NCBI GenBank assembly: GCA_017856455.1
Contig: JAFMEZ010000007.1
Span: forward strand, 1-57,000
Length of the DNA stretch: 57,000 nucleotides
Direction of reading: 5' to 3'
DNA from: Parafilimonas sp.
Lineage (GTDB): Bacteria; Bacteroidota; Bacteroidia; Chitinophagales; Chitinophagaceae
Shown: piece by piece, positions 28,634 through 31,532 of the stretch
Numbering within the stretch: the first letter of the stretch is position 1
Layout of the letters: each line of letters opens with the position of its first letter
Program-made: the position numbers and the translations under genes
The notes under the pieces: model-generated
Told to the model about the DNA's origin: nothing
Database searches by the model: none
What the model saw: the letters and a program-made list of their open reading frames with translations, nothing else

Positions 28634-28750
28634 ATGAAAGTAAGAGCATCTATTAAAAAGCGTAGTGCAGACTGCAAAATTGTGCGTCGCAAGGGTAAGT
28701 TGTATGTTATCAACAAAAAGAACCCACGATTTAAGCAGCGTCAAGGTTAA
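28634..28750 (+). CDS. rpmJ: 50S ribosomal protein L36, zinc-less form
   Basis: A 38-residue L36, starting MKVRASIKK and ending FKQRQG. In the zinc-binding form Cys11, Cys14, Cys27 and His33 hold the metal. Here those positions are Ser11, Cys14, Asn27 and Phe33, so only one ligand remains and zinc binding is not expected (C-minus type). Placement between infA and rpsM is the standard order. It is too short for common length cut-offs, yet the frame, start and stop are unambiguous. Confidence 0.97.
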
Positions 28751-28785
28751 TCAACATTTTAAAAGCTAAAACTTAACAAAGAAAT

Positions 28786-29166
28786 ATGGCTCGTATTGCA
28801 GGTATAGATTTGCCAAAGAACAAAAGAGGTGAGATTGGACTCACATACATCTTCGGAATTGGACGTGCAACTGCACAGTACATTCTAGATAAAGCTGGAA
28901 TTGACTACAACAAAAAAGTTAACCAGTGGAATGATGATGAGTTGAATGCAATCAGAAATATCATTACCAATGAATTCAAGGTTGAAGGTCAGCTTCGTTC
29001 TGAGGTTCAAATGTCTATCAAGCGATTATTAGATATCGCCTGCTACCGTGGATTGCGTCATCGTAAGGGATTGCCAGTACGTGGACAAAGAACCAAAACA
29101 AATTCTCGTACAAGAAAGGGTAAGAGAAAAACAGTTGCCGGTAAAAAGAAGGCACCTAAGAAATAA
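28786..29166 (+). CDS. rpsM: 30S ribosomal protein S13
   Basis: A 126-residue S13 of the small-subunit head, contacting 16S rRNA, tRNA and the B1 intersubunit bridges. It begins [21 protein letters not shown] and contains [10 protein letters not shown], the helix-two-turn-helix region, and the basic tail [19 protein letters not shown] followed by a Lys/Arg-rich end. Length is normal. ATG 28786 is preceded by an A-rich tract. A 133-base structured gap separates it from rpsK. Confidence 0.97.
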
Positions 29167-29171
29167 GATCT

Positions 29172-29195
29172 AAGGAAGTGCTGATGCACTTCTTT
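29172..29195 (+). other. Hairpin after rpsM
   Basis: GAAGTGC (29175-29181) pairs with GCACTTC (29186-29192) around a TGAT loop; A/G-T pairs can extend it to 29172-29195. Only three Ts follow, so it is at best a weak terminator or an mRNA processing or stability element within the operon. Confidence 0.5.
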
Positions 29196-29201
29196 GATAT
29201 A

Positions 29202-29254
29202 TGCACCATAAACTGTTCAAAGCTGGAAACCAGGTGCAGGTGAGGGTTGAACAG
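29202..29254 (+). ncRNA. Candidate pseudoknotted leader RNA upstream of rpsK
   Basis: Two perfect stems interleave in the classical H-type pseudoknot order. Stem 1 is TGCACC (29202-29207) with GGTGCA (29233-29238). Stem 2 is CTGTTCAA (29213-29220) with TTGAACAG (29247-29254). Loops of 5, 12 and 8 bases are long enough for both stems to form together. A smaller CTGG/CCAG hairpin (29223-29233) competes with stem 1. The element ends 45 bases before the rpsK start. An autogenous ribosomal-protein binding site is inferred from context. Confidence 0.5.
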
Positions 29255-29299
29255 GGTCTGAAAAGGCTGACAGAATTTTGAGTACCTATTTAAAAGATT

Positions 29300-29707
29300 A
29301 TGGCAAAAGCACAACAACAAAACAGCGCAAAAGCTGCTGCGAAGAAAAGAGTGGTAAAAGTTGACAGTTTCGGAGACGCTCACATCAACGCCACTTTCAA
29401 CAACCTCATTATCAGTTTAACAAACAAATCTGGACAAGTTATTTCTTGGAGCAGTGCAGGTAAAATGGGATTCAGAGGTTCTAAGAAGAATACTCCATAT
29501 GCAGCTCAGATGGCTGCTCAGGATGCTGCACGTGTAGCATTTGATGCAGGATTGAAAAGAGTGGATGTATATGTTAAAGGTCCTGGTGCCGGTAGAGAAG
29601 GTGCTATCCGCGCACTCGCTAACTCTGGTATTGAAGTAGTGATGATCAAGGATATTACTCCATTGCCACACAATGGTTGTCGTCCTCCTAAAAAACGTCG
29701 TGTATAA
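29300..29707 (+). CDS. rpsK: 30S ribosomal protein S11
   Basis: A 135-residue S11 of the small-subunit platform. After a Lys/Ala-rich N-terminal extension (about 1-16) the conserved core starts at [15 protein letters not shown] and includes [36 protein letters not shown] and the terminal [16 protein letters not shown]. Length is slightly longer than the usual 129 because of the N-terminus. The upstream 133-base gap holds a hairpin and a candidate pseudoknot; the downstream gap before rpsD holds another structured element. Confidence 0.97.
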
Positions 29708-29722
29708 TATTTATTCATAAAG

Positions 29723-29784
29723 GACAGCAGATTCAGTTTTTTGATTTTTTTATAATCTGTTGTCTGTAATAAAAAATCAAAAAA
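29723..29784 (+). ncRNA. Candidate bistable leader RNA upstream of rpsD
   Basis: Stem 1: GACAGCAGATT (29723-29733) pairs with AATCTGTTGTC (29754-29764), 11 pairs with one G-U. Stem 2: TTTTTTGATTTTTT (29737-29750) pairs perfectly over 14 positions with AAAAAATCAAAAAA (29771-29784). The stems interleave, but connecting loops of 3, 3 and 6 bases are too short for both to form fully, so they are better read as alternative folds. Stem 2 buries the A-rich tract ending 7 bases before the rpsD ATG; stem 1 would free it. S4 (RpsD) is a known autoregulator in E. coli and B. subtilis, making an S4-responsive switch the leading idea. Confidence 0.55.
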
Positions 29785-30397: not shown

Positions 30398-30412
30398 TCT
30401 GCCCGGGCTGGC

Positions 30413-30480
30413 ATTTCAGCTCAGGGTCTTTATATCACCCTTCTGAAGCAATTCAGAAGATTAACAAGTAAAACTGAAAT
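30413..30480 (+). other. Structured gap upstream of rpoA
   Basis: An outer stem ATTTCAG (30413-30419) with CTGAAAT (30474-30480) closes a region holding a perfect 8-bp hairpin, CTTCTGAA (30440-30447) with TTCAGAAG (30452-30459), capped by a GCAA tetraloop. A short GGGT/ACCC helix (30424-30427 with 30437-30440) competes at one base. The closing strand ends 6 bases before the rpoA ATG. Confidence 0.45.
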
Positions 30481-30486
30481 TTAAAT

Positions 30487-31503: not shown

Positions 31504-31532
31504 AAGCTGTAATTCCTGACACGGTACAGCTT
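31504..31532 (+). other. Hairpin upstream of rplQ
   Basis: AAGCTGTA (31504-31511) pairs perfectly with TACAGCTT (31525-31532) around a 13-base loop. Loop bases TGAC (31517-31520) could pair with GTCA (31544-31547), which includes the A of the rplQ start codon. No T-tract follows, so it is not a terminator. Confidence 0.45.

Follow-up and report, generated by a model that had tools for sequence, protein, structure and literature searches.

We describe a conserved, covarying RNA that lies directly upstream of rpsK, the gene of ribosomal protein uS11, in Chitinophagaceae and that has one strong copy per genome. In our view, its best explanation (rough probability 0.55) is that of a cis-acting ribosomal-protein leader for rpsK, through which surplus r-protein, most likely uS11, would repress translation. 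This leader RNA is absent from Rfam 15 and from the literature searched, while r-protein leaders as a kind are already known.

A covarying pseudoknot precedes rpsK

The window (the whole stretch of 57,000 nt of DNA analysed here) comes from a Bacteroidota genome of 1.94 Mb in 102 contigs. Its nearest named uS11 loci are those of Chitinophagales and Chitinophagaceae. The family sample corresponds to GTDB Chitinophagaceae, as inferred from its named members Segetibacter, Niabella, Puia, Flavisolibacter, Sediminibacterium and Chitinophaga. Gene order at the locus is infA-rpmJ-rpsM-rpsK-rpsD-rpoA-rplQ, and NCBIfam confirms the identities of the uS13, uS11 and uS4 genes. A sequence-only reading of this DNA had pointed to a gap of 133 bases between rpsM and rpsK; the gap indeed spans 29167-29299 and its flanking genes are those of uS13 and uS11. 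Gaps at this place measure 5-11 nt in most Flavobacterium loci, 10 nt in Tannerella loci and 80-230 nt in most Chitinophagaceae.

The same reading had proposed an H-type pseudoknot made of TGCACC/GGTGCA and CTGTTCAA/TTGAACAG. Both pairs form, in interleaved order (Table 1). Among 5000 dinucleotide shuffles of the gap, 12 gave H-type pairs of 6 + 8 Watson-Crick base pairs with loops of at most 16 nt. The fold of the 151-nt stretch stands out from shuffles, with a z of -2.6. Beyond what had been proposed, the window also holds a short P2, a purine internal loop and the sequence GAGUACCU.

Table 1. Features of the rpsM-rpsK region in the window
Feature	Positions	Strand	Basis or remark
rpsM (uS13), upstream gene	28786-29166	+	ORF; NCBIfam TIGR03631, 176 bits
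5' hairpin P0, GAAGTGC/GCACTTC	29175-29192	+	fold; in many but not all relatives; outside the conserved core
Pseudoknot helix, 5' strand UGCACC	29202-29207	+	pairs with 29233-29238
Stem P1, 5' strand CUGUUCAA	29213-29220	+	sequence; covariation
Internal loop, conserved 5' side (family GCCGGAU; here GCUGGAA)	29222-29228	+	alignments A1 and A2
Stem P2, 5' strand ACC	29229-29231	+	fold; covariation; model match
Pseudoknot helix, 3' strand GGUGCA, inside the P2 loop	29233-29238	+	sequence; covariation in congeners
Stem P2, 3' strand GGU	29239-29241	+	fold; covariation; model match
Internal loop, conserved 3' side (family GGAGG; here GAGGG)	29242-29246	+	alignments; sequence
Stem P1, 3' strand UUGAACAG	29247-29254	+	sequence; covariation; match to model R1 at 29215-29252, 22 bits, E 1.4e-4
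Variable downstream hairpin P3, GUCU/AGGC type	29256-29267	+	sequence; similar hairpins in relatives
GAnUACCU element, here GAGUACCU	29280-29287	+	20 nt ahead of the rpsK start
rpsK (uS11), presumed regulated gene	29300-29707	+	ORF; NCBIfam NF003698 and TIGR03632

The pseudoknot before rpsK is real. An alignment of 23 congeners (A3), which spans the region from the pseudoknot strand through the end of P1, pairs in 90.4% of cells over the whole structure, with two-sided changes at 12 of the 18 pairs; when the 3' partners are slid, pairing falls from 90% to 36-44%. The pseudoknot helix taken alone is paired in 94.2% of cells (27-66% when slid) and shows two-sided changes at four of its six pairs, and P1 is paired in 94% of cells with such changes at six of seven pairs. 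Within the genus, the helix occurs as UGCACC/GGUGCA, UGCAUC/GAUGCA, UACACC/GGUGUA and AACACC with GGUGU. The H-type interpretation, which stems unconserved in close relatives would have undermined, thus survives: both stems are kept and both carry compensatory changes.

These data also bear on the possibility that the complementarity is due to chance and has no function, to which we give almost no credence. The nested-only fold of the 53 nt is unremarkable (z -0.36) and no more stable than shuffles, as chance would predict, but covariation at the level of the genus and of the family and the genome-wide specificity described below refute it.

One RNA element in the Chitinophagaceae

About 190 rpsM-rpsK gaps were read. 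The consensus comes from a search by descriptor and, after it, from A2, an anchored alignment of 35 diverse sequences. A2 superseded a first MAFFT alignment (A1), in which part of P1 was one column off register. The gap in Chitinophagaceae holds one conserved RNA that consists of P1, an internal loop (C-R-G-A-U / G-G-A-G) and P2, followed by GAnUACCU. In the A2 consensus, the 7 bp of P1 are followed by one unpaired base, the pairs C9-G39 and C10-G38, a bulged purine, G-A opposite A-G, and P2. The G-A opposite A-G may form tandem sheared pairs. P1, counted with the two inner pairs, is paired in 95.8% of cells and P2 in 82.2%. For P1 and P2 together, two-sided changes are found at 12 of 13 pairs and 91.9% of cells are paired versus 29-48% in slid controls; because the script that picked the stems favours paired positions, more weight belongs to the controls (slid and shuffled) than to the raw percentage. 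The covariation score is 0.733, against 0.06-0.15 after sliding and 0.247 after shuffling.

The strand in the P2 loop has two alternative partners: it pairs upstream, as a pseudoknot, in about half of the species and is part of a longer local hairpin in the others. This replacement of the helix by a hairpin in many relatives, like the conservation of the internal loop and the GAnUACCU element, was not visible to the sequence-only reading. Pseudoknot runs of at least six consecutive Watson-Crick pairs occur in 55 of 132 leaders, against 4.5% when the upstream strand is shuffled and 11% when it is swapped between leaders, the latter figure being high because UGCACC is common. The helix sequences are diverse (UGCACC, GACUUA, GGCUUAU, AGGCUUCA, ACAUCCA, GAUCUG, GGCCU). 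A tree of uS13 and uS11 implies 19 changes between pseudoknot and hairpin forms and eight for presence or absence of the leader; it is a quick tree of modest support, and if only its starred branches are counted, the pseudoknot label must change about 6-7 times and presence three times. The next gene is rpsK at every locus examined. The leader is restricted to one family, some genera of which do not have it.

The leader was also searched for in whole genomes with a covariance model, R1, which finds the copy in the window (Table 1). Over 117 family genomes, R1 points to one strong place per genome. All of the 20 places that were fetched lie between rpsM and rpsK and carry GAnUACCU, although they are partly non-independent, a few of them being from organisms of earlier loci (e.g. 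L233 and L047). Only 60 of the 117 genomes reach E<=1, the window's own genome being among those missed, because R1 is short and the scan filters are stricter. In a scan of 247 genomes across the phylum, R1 gave six weak matches outside the family (E 0.001-0.01), none of them near rpsM or rpsK; we take them as chance and reject the presence of the leader outside Chitinophagaceae.

Comparison with known RNA families

No credible Rfam family was found at the leader, either at gathering score or at E up to 10; in the latter search, only a human scaRNA model overlapped it, scoring well short of its own cut-off. The E. coli alpha operon is controlled by uS4 with an entrapment mechanism (PMC10931766). 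Its target site (Alpha_RBS, RF00140) shares with the element of the window a pseudoknot and a location in the same operon, and acts on translation in E. coli. However, it lies before rpsM, overlaps the rpsM start and binds uS4, whereas the element described here is 3' of rpsM (29202-29287). In the window, Alpha_RBS has nothing at gathering score and a sole sub-threshold match before rpsM (28727-28818, 19.6 of 38 bits). The distinction that the sequence-only reading had drawn between the two therefore holds, there being no Alpha_RBS match in the rpsM-rpsK gap. A displaced E. coli S4 site was rejected on the same ground, and S4-type leaders are located before rpsD here.

Within the phylum, the S4 leaders listed in a survey by Eckert and Weinberg precede rpsD in Bacteroidia and Flavobacteria, and the survey has no leader for rpsK by itself (PMC7247131). 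These leaders (S4-Bacteroidia, RF03139; S4-Flavobacteria, RF03141) belong to the same operon, but they are hairpins before rpsD (PMC7247131), whereas the rpsK leader is larger and has a pseudoknot or a second helix. Their models match the rpsD gap in Flavobacteria and Tannerella loci, and give no match in the window or in any Chitinophagaceae locus scanned. Our literature searches, made in open-licence papers, found no rpsK leader in Bacteroidota.

The GAnUACCU element

GAnUACCU is located about 20 nt ahead of the rpsK AUG (mode 20-21). Among 136 aligned distinct elements, ACCU is present in all 136, GA in 133-134 and U in 124. The element is found in 132 of the 147 gaps with a descriptor fit to the core. 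Furthermore, the genera that lack the core also lack GAnUACCU (Chitinophaga loci L064, L166, L168, L176 and L178; loci L187-L189 of genus g24).

In 16S rRNA, the sole high-scoring site for GAnUACCU is the 3' tail GAAUACCU (12.8 versus 5.6 for the next-best site), with 0.07 sites at such a score expected by chance per 16S. This tail is identical in 35 of 35 Chitinophagaceae genomes with a match. The likeness covers 8 nt, and two sites complementary to GAnUACCU in a locus containing 23S score about equally. As an observation apart, the 16S tail reads GGAAUACCUCC in every Chitinophagaceae genome with a match (35), and in most bacteria GGAUCACCUCC.

Two other roles were considered for this element and rejected. 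As the partner of the core GGAG in a cis hairpin of the SD/anti-SD type, its complementarity is 4.40 versus 4.74 in shuffled leaders and is no longer than theirs. The possibility that it signals translation in general was tested with ATTACCT-N(9-13)-ATGGC, whose occurrence in six genomes does not clearly exceed that of the reversed control.

The conservation of this element and of the internal loop also bears on whether a protein reads the leader at all. The RNA could be a processing or stability element, a stand-by site for the ribosome or a transcription attenuator that splits rpsM from rpsK. Its intergenic position within a single operon would suit such a role, as would the 5' hairpin that many relatives carry ahead of a U-rich stretch. 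However, the search for an intrinsic terminator found none on the + strand of the gap, the 5' hairpin is absent from several genera that retain the core, and a near-invariant internal loop with an 8-nt element at a fixed distance from the AUG points to specific recognition. We therefore regard a leader without protein ligand as quite unlikely.

S6:S18 leaders contain a CCG trinucleotide. They share with the rpsK leader a hairpin and a conserved internal loop with CCG-like bases, but they belong to another gene, and here the CCG is not fixed (the third base of C-C-R being G or A) and there is no Rfam match. The platform proteins of the 30S subunit to which the 16S 3' tail is bound in Bacteroidia, namely bS21, bS18 and bS6, could also read the leader, with GAnUACCU as a decoy of the tail. 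The fit of the element to GAAUACCU is compatible with such a decoy, as is the finding that the 16S tail of Flavobacterium is lodged in a pocket of bS21, bS18 and bS6 (PMC9976891). We hold this to be very unlikely, since no strong second R1 match was found elsewhere in the scanned genomes and since, besides the variable third base, the first base of the trinucleotide is paired and covaries. Flavobacterium rpsU, which encodes bS21, is autoregulated via an extended SD (PMC9976891). This case, too, links an r-protein gene of Bacteroidia to the 16S 3' tail; however, the rpsU mRNA is complementary to the tail, whereas the rpsK leader carries the same sequence as the tail.

Other elements of the operon

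The rpsK-rpsD gap (29722-29779) holds a second covarying pseudoknot, which occurs widely in Chitinophagaceae, also where a genus has no rpsK leader. Within its hairpin (29722-29733/29754-29765), the loop contributes the strand UGAUUUUUU (29742-29750), whose partner is AAAAAAUCA (29771-29779) beside the rpsD start. In relatives, this helix occurs as ACGCUUUU/AAAAGCGU, CCGCUUU/AAAGCGG, AAGCUUUUU/AAAAAGCUU and others. Runs of at least seven pairs are found in 130 of 149 rpsK-rpsD gaps versus 3% of shuffled ones, some of these runs being the hairpin stem and not the pseudoknot. The rpsD leader occupies the position that the S4 leaders of Rfam have in sister classes, but their models do not match it.

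Between rpoA and rplQ (31504-31532), a hairpin with a covarying 7-bp stem surrounds a near-invariant AAUUCCUGACACGGU shortly before rplQ. It has no Rfam match and no clear rRNA likeness, and is a candidate bL17 leader. A different conserved hairpin, of the UUCAUAUUUUGCUCUCC...GCAAGAUGAAG type, precedes rplQ in the rpoA-rplQ gap of L066 and many other Flavobacterium loci. The rpsD-rpoA gap (30398-30486) contains AUAUCACCC, a hairpin and AACAAGUAAAACUGAAAUUUAAAUAUG, which runs into the rpoA start; this arrangement is common to many congeners.

Binding of uS4 to the leader before rpsK, as in the E. coli alpha operon, would allow one internal site to coordinate rpsK, rpsD, rpoA and rplQ. This protein is the proven regulator of that operon in E. 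coli, where it acts via a pseudoknot (PMC10931766), and rpsD is located downstream here. However, in Chitinophagaceae a separate covarying pseudoknot leader lies directly before rpsD, as do the Rfam S4 leaders of sister classes, and it is retained in genera without the rpsK leader (L064). Moreover, neither Alpha_RBS nor the S4 families match the rpsK leader. With a pseudoknot leader already at rpsD and a separate hairpin at rplQ, S4 is less likely to act at rpsK, and we consider this reading unlikely.

A proposed leader of rpsK and its probable ligand

The element before rpsK has the anatomy of an r-protein leader since it lies 5' of one r-protein gene, covaries and has invariant unpaired positions near the start codon. 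A conserved structured RNA directly 5' of an r-protein gene is the general mark of such leaders. In the mechanism that we propose, the RNA would fold into P1, the purine-rich internal loop and P2. The last of these would be completed in one of two ways, with a pseudoknot to an upstream strand (the form in the window) or with a longer hairpin formed locally. Free surplus r-protein, most likely uS11, would bind the core together with GAnUACCU, unpaired and just ahead of the start codon. The bound protein would cover the landing site of the 30S subunit and rpsK translation would be repressed until uS11 is taken up by 16S rRNA. Entrapment and competition are both compatible with the data on the rpsK leader.

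We favour uS11 on indirect grounds: it is encoded by the adjacent gene, the downstream r-protein genes have their own elements, and GAnUACCU fits the 16S 3' tail. The leader contains an element that matches this tail (GAAUACCU), and the contact between uS11 and the tail is taken from the yeast 40S subunit, where the C-terminus of uS11 lies buried between h23 and the 3' end of 18S rRNA (PMC5148605). The likeness to the tail is short, the complementary sites in the 23S-containing locus score about equally and the core has no detectable rRNA relative; uS11, although the likeliest ligand, is therefore to be taken as a lead rather than as a result. Mimicry of rRNA by the folded core found no support: with filters off, R1 gave only noise on two 16S and two 23S loci (best E 0.38). 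By eye, the core shows only a short likeness (CGGA.../...GGA) to the base of h23, where uS11 sits on 16S rRNA.

The passages found in a 2023 update on extraribosomal functions of r-proteins do not mention regulation by uS11. In yeast, uS11 controls its own RNA, the RPS14B pre-mRNA, by autoregulation at splicing. This system shares with our proposal the action of uS11 on its own RNA, but it is eukaryotic and operates at splicing. It is possible, if still doubtful, that the whole arrangement holds as proposed. The leader would then be the first site of uS11 autoregulation in a bacterium and would offer the protein a copy of the 16S tail (GAnUACCU) right before the rpsK start. Separate leaders of rpsK, rpsD and rplQ would, in this operon, replace the single S4 control point known from E. 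coli.

Biological significance

The rpsK leader is an RNA family that is uncatalogued, well supported and tied to one precise target gene. The exchange of pseudoknot and local hairpin, which takes place at one position around a preserved core, is a clear example of structural replacement in an RNA regulator. Should uS11 prove to be the ligand, this would be, as far as the literature searches showed, the first leader for this protein in bacteria; it would also offer a natural means to study uS11 recognition of the 16S 3' end where the anti-Shine-Dalgarno is sequestered. Confirmation of this ligand would make the element more than a new member of the r-protein leaders. Together, the elements of rpsK, rpsD and rplQ suggest that the alpha operon of Chitinophagaceae is controlled gene by gene.
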